Shown here: piece after piece, positions 1,852-6,405 of the stretch
How the letters are laid out: every line of letters begins with the position of its first letter
Position numbering within the stretch: position 1 is the first letter of the stretch
Assembly: GCA_028282685.1 (NCBI GenBank)
Contig: JANQHK010000052.1
Location: 1-53,088, forward strand
Length of the DNA: 53,088 nucleotides
Direction of reading: 5' to 3'
Origin: Phycisphaeraceae bacterium
Lineage (GTDB): Bacteria; Planctomycetota; Phycisphaerae; Phycisphaerales; Zrk34
Translations under genes and position numbers: made by a program
Notes under the pieces: generated by a model
What the model was told of the DNA's origin: nothing
The model's database searches: none
What the model saw: the letters and a program-made list of their open reading frames with translations, nothing else

Positions 1852-2733
1852 CTAAACGTGCAATAACACTTCGATATGCTTGCGTATCTCGTCGGCGATG
1901 TCCTCGCGTTTGAGCGCGAAGTCGATGAAGCAGCGGACGTATTCCAGTCGATTTCCGATGTCGAAGCGTCTGGCCTGCCAGGCCAGGGCGTACATTTTCT
2001 GCTCCCCGGCCAGCAGGTTCATCGCATCGGTGAGTTGGATTTCCCCCCCCACGCCGCGCCCGGTGTGCTTGAGGCAGTCAAATATCTGGTGGTTGAAGAC
2101 GTATCGCCCGGCGATGGCCAGGTTGGTCGGGGCCCGGTCCACCGGCGGTTTTTCGACCAGTTGCTTCAGGTCGAGCAGGTCGTCGTTGCCGTTGAGAGGC
2201 GAGCCGTCCACGATGCCGTATCGGCTGACCCATTGCTCAGGCACGCGATGCACCGCCACGACACTGCCCTGCAATTTCTCATACACATTGAGCAACTGCC
2301 TCAGCCCCGGCTGCTCGCCATCGTGCGGCTGGATGATCGTGTCGCCCAGCAGGACGGCAAAGGGCTCTTCGCCCACATGGTCGTGCGCCAGTGCGATCGC
2401 ATCGCCCAGACCGCGCTGCTCCTTCTGACGCACGTAGTGGATATTGGCCAGGTCGGCGATAGACCGGACGCGATCGATCAGGTCTTCCTTGCCGTTGGCC
2501 TTGAGGAAGGCCTCGAGCTCCGGGTTGTAATCGAAGTGATTTTCAATGGCGCGTTTACCGCGGCCGGTGACGACCAGAATGTCGGTTATGCCGCAGGCGA
2601 CCGCCTCTTCGATGACATACTGCAAGACCGGCTTATCGATTATGGGCAGCATTTCCTTGGGCATCGATTTGGTGGCTGGGAGAAATCGCGTACCCATGCC
2701 TGCGGCGGGGATCACCGCTTTGTTGACGGTCAT
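1852..2733 (-). CDS. galU: UTP-glucose-1-phosphate uridylyltransferase family protein
   Basis: 293 residues, the normal length of bacterial GalU. It transfers UMP from UTP to a sugar 1-phosphate, making a UDP-sugar and pyrophosphate. The nucleotide-binding motif AAGMGTRFLPATKSMPKEMLP is at residues 10-30; LVVTGRGKRAIENHFD and VEKP follow. The ATG at 2733 overlaps the stop of the upstream glucuronokinase-like gene by 4 bp (ATGA), so the two are translationally coupled. Because of that neighbour the physiological substrate may be glucuronate-1-phosphate as well as, or instead of, glucose-1-phosphate; that is inference. It is the last gene of a five-gene overlapping operon. Confidence 0.93.
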   Translation of the reverse strand: MTVNKAVIPAAGMGTRFLPATKSMPKEMLPIIDKPVLQYVIEEAVACGITDILVVTGRGKRAIENHFDYNPELEAFLKANGKEDLIDRVRSIADLANIHYVRQKEQRGLGDAIALAHDHVGEEPFAVLLGDTIIQPHDGEQPGLRQLLNVYEKLQGSVVAVHRVPEQWVSRYGIVDGSPLNGNDDLLDLKQLVEKPPVDRAPTNLAIAGRYVFNHQIFDCLKHTGRGVGGEIQLTDAMNLLAGEQKMYALAWQARRFDIGNRLEYVRCFIDFALKREDIADEIRKHIEVLLHV

Positions 2734-3737
2734 GAACAATCTCCGATTTGCGGCTCGATGAGCTCGGCCCCAAACGCTTCGTAATCCTGCCTCATACGGC
2801 GCAGGCGGGCGGGGTCGCCATCGTAGACGCCAATCACGGCCCCGCCGGAGCCGGCGAACTTCACCGCGCAACCGTACCGGCGGGCAATATCGATCAACAT
2901 CTGGTTGCCCGGGCTGATCTGAACCAGCGAGGCGCGCAGATTGAAGTTGTCGTTCATCAGCGGGGCGATTTCCTCACCTCGCCCGGACTGGATCAATTCG
3001 CGACAGCGTTCGGCTAAATCGGCGAACTGCCCCATCGCCTCAACCACCTGCTTCTCTTCACGATTCCATCGATCGCGCAGCGAGTTGTGCGTCACCTCCG
3101 TACCTTCGGAGAGATGGCTGTGATACGCGACGAACAACGGCGGCAGATTCGACGGATCGAGCGATTCGTAGATGCCGTGGCCCTTGGTTTCCAGGTGCTC
3201 GCGATCAAAGTCCATGAAGACGGCGCCTTCGTATATCTGGATCACGCGGTCCTGCAACCCGGCGCTGATGCCCAGTTCATCCAGCTCCACGCTGAGGATC
3301 ACGCCGGGCAACTCGGGCTTGGGGATATCGATCTGGAAGAATTTCATCAGCGCGCGCATGACGGCGGTGATGATCCCGCTGGAACCGGCCAAGCCCACCC
3401 GGATCGGAATGTCCGTGCGGTATTCGATGGTGAACTGCCACGGCGGAAGCATCTGGCCGTGCTCGCGGCAGTAATCGTGGAAGCGTTTGATGGTGGCCTT
3501 GATCAGGCGCACCCCGCCGTAGTAGCCGTTGACGTAAACGTCGTCGACCAGATCGTCCAACCGTTCAAACACCAGCCGATCGGAATGCTGCGGCCGAATC
3601 TCCAGGCGCGGCGATTCGTAACAGATCACCTCCGCTTTGTAGTTCTGAACGATCACAGAAATCGTCTTTCCGAAGTAGCCGTCGGAGGGATTGCCGATCA
3701 GGCCGGCCCGAGCATAAGCGTGGGTGTGAATGATCAC
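2730..3737 (-). CDS. GHMP-family sugar kinase resembling plant glucuronokinase
   Basis: 335 residues. The GHMP fold is shown by the N-terminal ARAGLIGNPSDGYFGKTIS (residues 9-27), the phosphate-binding PIRVGLAGSSG (111-121) and the C-terminal KFAGSGGAVIGVY. From memory, the protein aligns along most of its length with Arabidopsis glucuronokinase: GNPSDxYFGxTIS, GYYGGVRL, ELGIxAGLQDRV, GHGIY and KFxGSGGAV are shared. Expected reaction: ATP plus D-glucuronate to glucuronate-1-phosphate. The start is GTG at 3737, overlapping the preceding YkgJ-type stop as GTGA. Coupling with GalU suggests UDP-glucuronate salvage. An alternative is another GHMP sugar kinase, such as a heptose or L-fucose kinase type. 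Confidence 0.85.
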   Translation of the reverse strand: MIIHTHAYARAGLIGNPSDGYFGKTISVIVQNYKAEVICYESPRLEIRPQHSDRLVFERLDDLVDDVYVNGYYGGVRLIKATIKRFHDYCREHGQMLPPWQFTIEYRTDIPIRVGLAGSSGIITAVMRALMKFFQIDIPKPELPGVILSVELDELGISAGLQDRVIQIYEGAVFMDFDREHLETKGHGIYESLDPSNLPPLFVAYHSHLSEGTEVTHNSLRDRWNREEKQVVEAMGQFADLAERCRELIQSGRGEEIAPLMNDNFNLRASLVQISPGNQMLIDIARRYGCAVKFAGSGGAVIGVYDGDPARLRRMRQDYEAFGAELIEPQIGDCS

Positions 3738-4273
3738 GAAGGAGCTCTCGAGTTAATTGTGTGTACCGACAGGGTGTTCTCTACCGATCGCACCGCGTCC
3801 AATATCTCGCGGTACTCAATGTAAAGATACGGCAGGTCGAGCCGTTCATGCAACGCGCGGAGTCGCTTGAGCATGGTTTCGTACTGATGCACATGCCAGA
3901 TCTGGGCCGTGGGATCGCAGAAATAGACCCGGCACCCCAGCGGACGCAGGGCATGGACCGAGCAGAGCCGATCCACCTGGAACGGGCATCCGTCCATCCC
4001 CGGCAGATCGGCCAGGGCCAGCCGGCGGCGTGCCGGGCCATCCAACTGACGCACCATCCAGGCAATTTCCAGACCGGTCACGTATAGCAGATGATCGTAG
4101 GTGTTGAATCGGCAACAGCTTCCGCTCATTTCGCAAACCGGCTTACGCTCGGTGATTTCCCTCTGGAGCTCGTCGTAAATGGCGCGGAGCGCGCGGTCGG
4201 TTTCGGCATCGCCGGCCGCATCAAACCACCGCCGCCATTGGTCGGCCGGGATGTCAGGAGGGGGTGCGGTCAC
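3734..4273 (-). CDS. YkgJ-type cysteine-cluster protein (second of tandem pair)
   Basis: 179 residues from a GTG at 4273, which overlaps the upstream gene by 20 bp. No ATG between that point and the Cys cluster keeps the conserved N-terminus. The cysteines lie in VCEMSGSCCRF, GCPF, LCSVHALRPLGCRVYFC: the C-x(n)-CC...C-P...C...C pattern of the YkgJ/UPF0153 family, thought to bind zinc or an iron-sulfur cluster. No enzymatic role is established. It is flanked by another family member and by the glucuronokinase-like gene, with overlapping stops and starts, so it belongs to the same transcript. Confidence 0.8.
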   Translation of the reverse strand: MTAPPPDIPADQWRRWFDAAGDAETDRALRAIYDELQREITERKPVCEMSGSCCRFNTYDHLLYVTGLEIAWMVRQLDGPARRRLALADLPGMDGCPFQVDRLCSVHALRPLGCRVYFCDPTAQIWHVHQYETMLKRLRALHERLDLPYLYIEYREILDAVRSVENTLSVHTINSRAPS

Positions 4274-4736
4274 GTTGGATCCGGATGTGCTTGAGGGGAA
4301 TGAAATCGCCTCCGCCCTCCAGGCCAGTGCGAATGCCGGGGCAGGTTTTCGCCGCGTCGAACCAGTCGTCGGCGGTTTCCAGGTTCTCCGGCCAGAAGGG
4401 CCAGGTCCGACACTGGGCCGGACGCACGGGGTATATCGTGCACAGCGCCTTGCCCTCATCGTCGCGCTGGAGGAAGACGCAATCGTATTGTCCATTGACC
4501 TGGCGCTCGTTCAGCGACCACCGGCCGTCGATCTTGCGCGCGTGTCGGCGGAGAAACGTCGTCGCAGGCAAGCCGACATGCTCGGCCATGGCGGTCAGTT
4601 CGTCCATGTCGAACCAGACGAAGCCGGTCGGCCCCGTGCAGCAGTTGCCGCATTGGGTGCATCGAAACCGCAGGCCCTGGGCATACCATGGGGCGGAACG
4701 GACGGATTGATCGGAGCGCGGCATCTCAGGCGGCAT
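4254..4736 (-). CDS. YkgJ-type cysteine-cluster protein (first of tandem pair)
   Basis: 160 residues. The N-terminal CTQCGNCCTG (CxxCxxCC) and later Cys in DCVFL, LCTIYPVRPAQCRTWPFWP and KTCPG form the UPF0153/YkgJ putative metal-binding cluster. This is the more canonical copy; the second copy next door has diverged, which suggests an old duplication or two partner subunits. The ATG at 4736 overlaps the HDAC-like gene's end by 11 bp; an ATG at 4724 is an alternative start. Function unknown; proposed roles for the family include Fe-S or zinc handling. Confidence 0.85.
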   Translation of the reverse strand: MPPEMPRSDQSVRSAPWYAQGLRFRCTQCGNCCTGPTGFVWFDMDELTAMAEHVGLPATTFLRRHARKIDGRWSLNERQVNGQYDCVFLQRDDEGKALCTIYPVRPAQCRTWPFWPENLETADDWFDAAKTCPGIRTGLEGGGDFIPLKHIRIQRDRTPS

Positions 4737-5694
4737 CCTGCGGACTGCAAGCGGTGATCAACGTATCCACATGCGCCACCACGCACCGCCACAAGGCATC
4801 CAGATCGTATCCCCCTTCCAACACGCTGACCAGGCGGCCCTGGCAAAGCTCCGCGGCCGACTGACACAGCGCCTGCGTCATCCAGATGTACGAATCGGCC
4901 GAGAGATTGATGTGCGCCAGCGGATCTTCCCGGACCGCATCGAACCCGGCACTGACCAGCAGGAACTGCGGCCGGAACTCGGCCAGTTTCGGCAGCACCT
5001 GCTCGTCGAAGGCGCGGCGGTATTCCTCATCGCCGCAGCCGGGCAGCATCGGCACGTTCAGCGTGTAACCCGTGCCCTTGCCGTGACCGATCTCGTCGGC
5101 GTAGCCGGTGCCAGGGAAAAGATGGCGCGGGTCTTCGTGTAACGAGATCACCAGCACATCATCGCGCTGGTCGAAGGTGTGTTGCGTGCCGTTGGCGTGA
5201 TGCACGTCAAAATCCACAATCGCCACGCGCTCCAGATTGTGCTGACGCATGACATACTCGGCCCCGAGCGCGATGTTATTCAACAGGCAGAAGCCCATCG
5301 CCCGGTCGTGCTCGGCGTGGTGACCCGGCGGACGCACCGAGGCGAACACGCGCTCGACGCTTCCAGCCATCACCGCGTCGATTCCATCGAACACCCCCCC
5401 CACCGCCCGGCGGGCCACATCGTAACTGCCCTGGCAGATCGGGCATTCCGGCGAATCGATCGTCGGTCGGCTCGACAGGCAATGCTCGAACAGCCGCTGG
5501 ACGTACCGCCCGCTGTGGACCCACTCGAGCTGGTCCTCGTCGGCGAGGCGCGGATTGATCAACTCCAGCCGGCCGGCCAGTCCTTCGCCCTCAATACCCT
5601 CCCGGATCGCGGTCAGCCGATCGGGGCGTTCGGGATGGATGTAACCGGTGTCGTGGTCGAGATAAACGTCGCTGTAAACCCAGGCGCAAGCCAT
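4726..5694 (-). CDS. histone deacetylase-like zinc amidohydrolase
   Basis: 322 residues with the class II HDAC/acetylpolyamine amidohydrolase fold. RPPGHHAEHDRAMGFC (121-136) holds the charge-relay His pair H125/H126. DFDVHHANGT (161-170) gives zinc ligands D163 and H165, and SAGFDA gives D252. LEGGYD carries the transition-state Tyr296. It would deacylate an N-acetylated amine or lysine in the cytoplasm; the substrate is unknown. The frame is open far upstream, but similarity starts at MACAWVYSD, so ATG 5694 is chosen; a TATCAT hexamer 6 nt upstream suggests a leaderless message. It is the first gene of the overlapping operon that continues into the YkgJ pair, glucuronokinase and galU. Confidence 0.92.
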   Translation of the reverse strand: MACAWVYSDVYLDHDTGYIHPERPDRLTAIREGIEGEGLAGRLELINPRLADEDQLEWVHSGRYVQRLFEHCLSSRPTIDSPECPICQGSYDVARRAVGGVFDGIDAVMAGSVERVFASVRPPGHHAEHDRAMGFCLLNNIALGAEYVMRQHNLERVAIVDFDVHHANGTQHTFDQRDDVLVISLHEDPRHLFPGTGYADEIGHGKGTGYTLNVPMLPGCGDEEYRRAFDEQVLPKLAEFRPQFLLVSAGFDAVREDPLAHINLSADSYIWMTQALCQSAAELCQGRLVSVLEGGYDLDALWRCVVAHVDTLITACSPQDAA

Positions 5695-5700
5695 GGGAAC

Positions 5701-5729
5701 ATGATAACCGACCTGCTTAAAAATGTCGC
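5701..5729 (-). promoter_or_regulatory. candidate promoter of the HDAC-ykgJ-glucuronokinase-galU operon
   Basis: On the minus strand GCGACA (5729-5724), 17-bp spacer, TATCAT (5706-5701). The -10 ends 6 nt before the ATG at 5694, so the transcript would begin at or next to the start codon. Confidence 0.5.
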
Positions 5730-5751
5730 AGGACGTTACTTTCCCAAGTGT

Positions 5752-5757
5752 TATGAT
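5752..5757 (+). promoter_or_regulatory. -10-like hexamer TATGAT just upstream of the 5764 gene
   Basis: TATGAT ends 6 nt before ATG 5764. No convincing -35 is visible. It fits the leaderless pattern seen at several other genes here. Confidence 0.4.
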
Positions 5758-5763
5758 GAATCC

Positions 5764-6405
5764 ATGCGCTGGGACGGGCATGAGATCGTGGAGGCGGTGG
5801 CCGGTCATCTGGAGCGGTTGGCGCGGGCGGACGATCTGGAGCAGGCGGTCTACAGCATCGATCGTCTGGAGGAATTGGAGTTGCATCCGCTGATCCATGC
5901 CGGGCTGCGCGAAGCGGGATTCGGCACGCACCCGGAGCAGCGCTATCCCTCGGAGCGGACGGGCCGACGCAAAAGCGAAGGCAAGCGGTGCGATGCGGTG
6001 CTGACGCCGGACGATTTGCCGCTGGCCGAGCCGGGCGCCGAGGCGACGCTGTTCGCCGATGAAAACGCGGTGGCGCTGGAGGCGGCGTTCTGGCTGGAGA
6101 TCAAGACCGTCGCCCAATACACCACCGAAGGCCCGTTCGCGCGGTACGGTTCGGAACTGCTGGCCACGGTCTCGCAGGACATCCGCAAGCTGGCGCAGGA
6201 TCGGGCGATCTTTCACGCGGGTCTGCTGCTGGTGCTGTTCACCGAATCGCAGGAAATCGCCGAGCACGATCTGCAAGCGTGGTACGACCGCGTGCTCCAG
6301 CGCGGCTACCCCGTCGCTCCGGCCATCCGGCACGGTTTTGCACTGACCGACCGCATGGGCAACGGCTGGTGTGCGGTGGCGCTATTTCCCGTCAGGCGGT
6401 TGTGA
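5764..6405 (+). CDS. uncharacterised protein with PD-(D/E)XK-like motif
   Basis: 213 residues, not a family I recognise. The N-terminal 45 residues are helical and acidic. The middle contains KRCDAVLTP followed about 35 residues later by ALEAAFWLEIKTV, giving a D...ExK arrangement typical of PD-(D/E)XK nuclease-fold proteins. A helix with DIRKLAQD and a hydrophobic strand (HAGLLLVLF) follow, as in that fold. No signal peptide or membrane segment is seen. It is transcribed divergently from the HDAC operon, only 69 bp apart. It could be a nuclease-fold protein with a repair or defence role, or a non-catalytic relative. Confidence 0.7.
   Translation: MRWDGHEIVEAVAGHLERLARADDLEQAVYSIDRLEELELHPLIHAGLREAGFGTHPEQRYPSERTGRRKSEGKRCDAVLTPDDLPLAEPGAEATLFADENAVALEAAFWLEIKTVAQYTTEGPFARYGSELLATVSQDIRKLAQDRAIFHAGLLLVLFTESQEIAEHDLQAWYDRVLQRGYPVAPAIRHGFALTDRMGNGWCAVALFPVRRL

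Follow-up and report, generated by a model that had tools for sequence, protein, structure and literature searches.

A predicted glucuronokinase and an overlapping galU-type gene as a candidate UDP-glucuronate salvage module in Planctomycetes, Verrucomicrobia and relatives

The window, by which we mean the whole stretch of 53,088 nucleotides analysed here, encodes a sugar kinase of the GHMP superfamily that, on sequence grounds, is very probably a glucuronokinase, and the gene for this kinase overlaps that of a GalU-type nucleotidyltransferase. Considered jointly, the two enzymes are likely to constitute a module for UDP-glucuronate salvage, as the original prediction proposed, and this uronate-salvage reading is supported by family scores, by conserved pairing of the genes and by uronate-related neighbours in related organisms. 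The kinase-galU pair is widespread in Planctomycetes, Verrucomicrobia and their relatives. To our knowledge, UDP-glucose dehydrogenase is usually regarded as the sole bacterial source of UDP-glucuronate. Salvage of UDP-glucuronate from free glucuronate has so far been demonstrated solely in plants and some animals, and no experimental bacterial glucuronokinase was found in the literature searched. The name “glucuronokinase” does appear among the predicted bacterial functions of an algal microbiome (PMC8571626), which suggests that annotation databases probably already apply it to some bacterial genes. The proposed chemistry is already known; what is new here is the partner enzyme, the operon and the wide, previously unremarked range.

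Arrangement of the gene pair

The pair and the open reading frame (ORF) that precedes it lie on the minus strand, in the following order of transcription:

3734..4246, minus strand: preceding ORF, which has a cysteine motif resembling CxxxxxCC and overlaps the start of the kinase (from the ORF list)
3734..3737, minus strand: GTGA, 4-bp overlap of the upstream ORF stop with the GTG start of the kinase (from the sequence)
2730..3737, minus strand: glucuronokinase-like sugar-1-kinase of the GHMP superfamily (335 aa, starting at GTG)
2730..2733, minus strand: ATGA, 4-bp overlap of the kinase stop (TGA, 2732-2730) with the galU start (ATG, 2733-2731) (from the sequence)
1852..2733, minus strand: galU-type nucleotidyltransferase, proposed UDP-glucuronate pyrophosphorylase, 293 aa, ATG start

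The 4-bp overlap between the two genes that had been reported for this DNA is thus seen in the sequence as ATGA, and the same -4 gap between kinase and galU occurs at eight other loci. Because of the ATGA and GTGA overlaps the kinase, galU and the preceding ORF are probably co-translated, and we infer translational coupling of the kinase with galU. No family was found for the preceding ORF in NCBIfam and Pfam profile searches. The region just upstream of the kinase on the same strand (window 3734-6333) encodes two small cysteine-motif proteins, one of them belonging to PF03692 (CxxCxxCC), as well as an ORF resembling histone-deacetylase-type enzymes; ORFs of similar length precede the kinase in the related genome G004.

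The kinase is probably a glucuronokinase

The motifs named as glucuronokinase-like in the original prediction are all found in the kinase and are nearly invariant across 36 bacterial relatives. Translation and alignment place the conserved motifs as follows:

3657..3695, minus strand: motif 1, GNPSDGYFGKTIS (residues 15-27)
3504..3527, minus strand: GYYGGVRL (residues 71-78)
3372..3395, minus strand: motif 2, GLAGSSGI (residues 115-122)
3243..3278, minus strand: ELGISAGLQDRV (residues 154-165)
3168..3182, minus strand: GHGIY (residues 186-190)
2835..2861, minus strand: motif 3, KFAGSGGAV (residues 293-301)

We take motif 2 to be the GHMP phosphate loop, and D163 is the probable catalytic aspartate by comparison with galactokinases. 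When 35 kinases drawn from two phyla are aligned, residues R10, G15-D19, G71, G74-G75, R77, D163-R164 and G296-G299 show no variation; together with the conserved gene order described below, these invariant residues exceed what would be observed by chance.

The protein contains the Pfam GHMP N (PF00288) and C (PF08544) domains, both above the gathering score, and its AlphaFold2 model has a mean pLDDT of 92. In a fold search this model matched galactokinases, the heptokinase WcbL and mevalonate kinases with Z of about 31 at 12-18% identity, and the fucokinase FKP also matches by fold (16-17% identity), while by sequence the closest proteins of solved structure are heptose and mevalonate kinases, which are only distantly related (E about 1e-8). 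These matches would suit a heptose, fucose, galactose or mevalonate-type kinase whose likeness to the plant enzyme consists of general GHMP motifs only. We consider this very improbable, since the kinase scores far below every curated cut-off for such families. None of the curated NCBIfam GHMP families reaches its cut-off with this protein: the D-glycero-D-manno-heptose kinase HddA (NF049969) gives 36.1 bits against a cut-off of 600, mevalonate kinase (TIGR00549) 48.6 against 163 and galactokinase (NF003006) 19.9 against 443, and neither a galacturonokinase nor a fucokinase is among the NCBIfam matches. The kinase accordingly falls outside NCBI's curated GHMP families. Its neighbourhood in relatives, moreover, is one of UDP-uronate metabolism rather than of heptose, GDP-fucose or isoprenoid synthesis, and identity to a provisional plant glucuronokinase sequence is 38-45% across the bacterial family, compared with the 12-18% seen by fold.

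The plant reference used for these comparisons is a provisional sequence of Arabidopsis GLCAK1 (AtGLCAK1, 362 aa), written out unaided and not an authentic database copy. Aligned with it over near full length, the window kinase is 38% identical and other bacterial relatives up to 45% identical, values close to the minimum identity among the bacterial kinases themselves (37%). A hidden Markov model (HMM) built from 73 bacterial relatives only gave the provisional AtGLCAK1 a score of 355 bits; of the other GHMP kinases taken from related genomes, the nearest reached 178 bits and four more 83 bits or less. The provisional AtGLCAK1 is identical at 54 of the 62 columns that are conserved at 95% among the bacterial kinases. 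There are 30 informative columns in which the window kinase differs from the other bacteria; the provisional AtGLCAK1 agrees with the other bacteria in 22 of them and with the window kinase in 8, which indicates that it does not simply reproduce the window kinase. In the tree it branches off immediately outside the whole set of bacterial relatives, and its branch is long. The likeness to Arabidopsis GLCAK1 held up on this provisional sequence, and we treat it as a strong lead rather than a test. Viral contigs scanned with the provisional AtGLCAK1 contained no relative. Nearest outside the subfamily is a GHMP kinase encoded in a genome of the same order (L006:1306-2196), which is about 30% identical over its full length.

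Distribution of the kinase and its pairing with GalU

The kinase is encoded by 42 of the 397 genomes from the window's own class and by 126 of the 388 from the phylum that includes Verrucomicrobia and Lentisphaerae. GalU was searched for independently of the kinase in the same genome sets, at a threshold of E 1e-60. In the class, 41 genomes have both genes, 1 the kinase only, 2 GalU only and 353 neither, and in the Verrucomicrobia/Lentisphaerae phylum the corresponding numbers are 102, 24, 4 and 258; these genomes share ancestry, and Fisher values calculated on such counts are not independent evidence. All three discordant genomes of the class are less than 90% complete, so that the good-quality genomes of the class agree without exception (284/284). 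The contrast also holds within single families, for example f1, where three genomes have both genes and four have neither. In a smaller set, GalU was found in all 17 kinase-bearing genomes or records and in none of 11 kinase-less relatives. Of the 143 genomes that have both genes, 116 carry galU directly downstream of the kinase and in the same orientation, within 150 bp in 104. The pairing thus holds up in a survey of 785 genomes of the kind that had been proposed.

A kinase-galU pair is also carried by a mobilizable plasmid of Rufibacter tibetensis (Bacteroidota; NZ_CP012644.1, L042:15001-16939), where the kinase is annotated merely as “GHMP kinase” with galU adjoining, and this plasmid-borne pair suggests transfer between phyla.

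Variations in this arrangement are observed in some representatives. The 24 Verrucomicrobia/Lentisphaerae genomes with the kinase only are those in which no GalU was detected at E 1e-60, and they speak against the proposed route. At three loci from these groups (L012:1452-5111, L142 and L143) the place of galU directly after the glucuronokinase-like gene is taken by a gene for a large Ser/Thr protein kinase (about 1200 aa). G370, which belongs to the two genomes of the class that have GalU and lack the kinase, encodes a divergent GalU homologue that has no GLG motif (L160:1066-1941). An apparent 743-aa kinase “fusion” at L131 was rejected as the product of a spurious upstream reading frame, judged from the sequence.

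The GalU-type partner

The partner scores 354.9 bits against the TIGR01099 galU family (cut-off 326.8), its best solved relatives are Bacillus YngB and other GalUs, and it is 41% identical to Escherichia coli GalU and about 50% identical to GalU from Bacillota. The canonical EKP and GRY motifs are retained, and two sites adjacent to the active site were found by alignment to differ from GalUs of other organisms:

2398..2412, minus strand: GalU residues 108-112, GLGDA (GLGHA in 12 of 13 GalUs of other organisms)
2338..2349, minus strand: GalU residues 129-132, LGDT (D at position 132 in 10 of 13 GalUs of other organisms)

Among 57 kinase-linked GalUs, GLGDA is present in 48 and Thr132 in 51, a signature that would fit a changed substrate. 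The stronger claim, that Asp111 and Thr132 prove changed specificity, was rejected: an archaeal GalU with the same residues is encoded in a cluster for UDP-glucose dehydrogenase and UDP-glucuronate decarboxylase that is without this kinase, and the signature therefore does not prove a changed substrate. Nor was the idea that kinase-linked GalUs form one clade supported, as the deep branches of the GalU tree are unresolved. Six UDP-glucose pyrophosphorylases that have been assayed strongly prefer glucose-1-phosphate and hardly use glucuronate-1-phosphate (PMC12203929). Because of the archaeal GalU, the unsupported clade and this published preference, formation of UDP-glucuronate from the kinase product by the GalU partner is the least secure step of the proposed route, and one that we nevertheless consider probable.

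It is possible instead, and on balance rather unlikely, that the kinase is a glucuronokinase and GalU keeps its UDP-glucose job, followed by UDP-glucose dehydrogenase. Both activities would then feed the same UDP-glucuronate pool, which would account for the two genes being neighbours, and glucuronate-1-phosphate would be used by another enzyme or by a small side activity. The true-GalU score, the canonical motifs and the archaeal cluster are all consistent with this explanation, as are the TuaD-like UDP-glucose 6-dehydrogenase encoded immediately upstream of the pair at one locus (L093) and the presence of UDP-glucose-dehydrogenase family members in almost all kinase-bearing genomes tested. 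Against it, GalU is almost confined to kinase-bearing genomes, as expected if the kinase supplies its substrate, and kinase-less relatives possess UDP-glucose dehydrogenase homologues without GalU.

One further argument, that UDP-glucose is made by a PF01704 enzyme and that GalU must hence do something else, was dropped when the protein in question was recognised as a homologue of the AGX1-type UDP-GlcNAc pyrophosphorylase. This eukaryotic-type enzyme is encoded elsewhere in the genome of the window (L103:1797-3299, contig C53), and PF01704 occurs in 25 of 28 genomes or records.

Relation to UDP-glucose dehydrogenase

The route had also been proposed to bypass UDP-glucose dehydrogenase, a claim that the genomes leave unproven: relatives with the pair carry this enzyme family, and its apparent absence from the genome of the window coincides with a contig break. 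The genome of the window has three UDP-glucose-dehydrogenase family members, none of which is TuaD-like, and we had considered that salvage might be its only route to UDP-glucuronate. This view was dropped, since contig C13 breaks off within the gene for a UDP-glucuronate 4-epimerase homologue (56% identity; L159:7715-8632), and in G004 a divergent UDP-glucose-dehydrogenase-family gene starts where C13 ends, so that an assembly gap accounts for the missing dehydrogenase equally well. As the family is found in almost all kinase-bearing genomes, salvage probably runs beside the normal route.

Uronate-related context

A gene for an NAD-dependent epimerase directly follows the pair at six loci (L086, L088, L092, L093, L094 and L096). 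One of these, L093, is the locus with the TuaD-like dehydrogenase gene upstream, which likewise points to uronates. The best PDB relatives of the linked epimerase include the UDP-glucuronate 4-epimerase of Bacillus cereus and MoeE5, and alignment shows that it conserves Ser127/Ser128 and Arg185, which hold the substrate carboxylate, whereas the Glu typical of decarboxylases is absent (PMC7984243, PMC12338863). At L084, a locus whose genome belongs to the same order as the window, galU is followed by a gene for a TRAP solute-binding protein in which two uronate-coordinating arginines and an asparagine are conserved. Its best PDB matches are the hexuronate binders 4N8Y (nearest), 4X8R, 4MHF and 4N91, of which 4N8Y holds galacturonate and 4X8R glucuronate (PMC11668362); 4MHF (glucuronate and galacturonate) and 4N91 (glucuronate) are likewise hexuronate-binding structures (PMC7660916).

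Some of this context would also suit a kinase with a different uronic acid as substrate, D-galacturonate being the likeliest; GalU would then form UDP-galacturonate and the epimerase would work toward UDP-glucuronate. The 4-epimerase beside the pair can act in either direction between the two UDP-uronates (PMC7984243), and the PDB structure closest to the linked TRAP binder contains galacturonate. We nevertheless find this substrate quite unlikely, since plant galacturonokinase is very unlike glucuronokinase in sequence and the zebrafish glucuronokinase does not use galacturonate (PMC3938481), and since the kinase resembles the provisional glucuronokinase sequence over its full length.

The context fits salvage of external glucuronate better than inositol oxidation. 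Myo-inositol oxygenase (PF05153) had no match in 28 genomes or records, and none in 14 control genomes either. No uronate isomerase UxaC was found in the genome of the window, which does encode the 4-epimerase homologue described above.

Proposed pathway

Gene structure, family, GHMP fold, pairing, near-perfect co-occurrence and the uronate-related neighbours in relatives are shown here by computation, whereas the two substrates, the direction in which the route runs and the origin of the glucuronate are inferred. Uronic-acid polysaccharides degraded outside the cell would probably provide free D-glucuronate for import, which the kinase would phosphorylate at C1 with ATP to give glucuronate-1-phosphate. 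The GalU-type partner would then convert glucuronate-1-phosphate and UTP to UDP-glucuronate and pyrophosphate. UDP-glucuronate would enter glycan synthesis; in several relatives a UDP-glucuronate 4-epimerase would first convert it to UDP-galacturonate.

More tentatively, and with slightly less than even confidence, we suggest a widespread pathway of the PVC superphylum in which a GalU turned dedicated UDP-glucuronate pyrophosphorylase travels with a glucuronokinase. Such a pathway would correspond in bacteria to that of plants and animals, which may have originated from it. If this is true, many phyla living on uronic-acid-rich polysaccharides would channel the uronic acid straight into glycans of their own. 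The naming of these GalUs, now filed as glucose-specific, would have to be corrected, and the pair would offer compact enzymes for UDP-glucuronate production.

Comparison with known systems

In plants, glucuronokinase (GLCAK, EC 2.7.1.43) acts with a UDP-sugar pyrophosphorylase in the myo-inositol oxygenation pathway. The bacterial pair shares with this route a GHMP kinase of the same apparent family and the logic of converting a sugar-1-phosphate to a UDP-sugar, but its partner is of the GalU type rather than a UDP-sugar pyrophosphorylase, and the bacterial genes overlap in an operon.

Zebrafish possesses a bifunctional enzyme in which glucuronokinase is likewise combined with a bacterial-type nucleotidyltransferase, in this case by fusion, and the pyrophosphorylase domain of which is barely active in vitro (PMC3938481). 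In the bacteria there are two overlapping genes with the kinase first, whereas the zebrafish enzyme is one protein with the nucleotidyltransferase first (PMC3938481). The bacterial partner is also a full GalU, whereas the bacterial relatives of the zebrafish domain have been reported solely as stand-alone pyrophosphorylases (PMC3938481).

Compared with GalU itself (UTP--glucose-1-phosphate uridylyltransferase, TIGR01099), the partner lies above the curated cut-off, but it has GLGDA...LGDT instead of the usual GLGHA...GDD and in these phyla occurs almost only beside the kinase. Finally, the pair resembles the Bacteroides FKP (fucokinase/GDP-fucose pyrophosphorylase) and HddA/HddC, in which a GHMP sugar kinase likewise works with a nucleotidyltransferase to salvage or activate a sugar, and differs from them in the GHMP subfamily, the nucleotide and the sugar.
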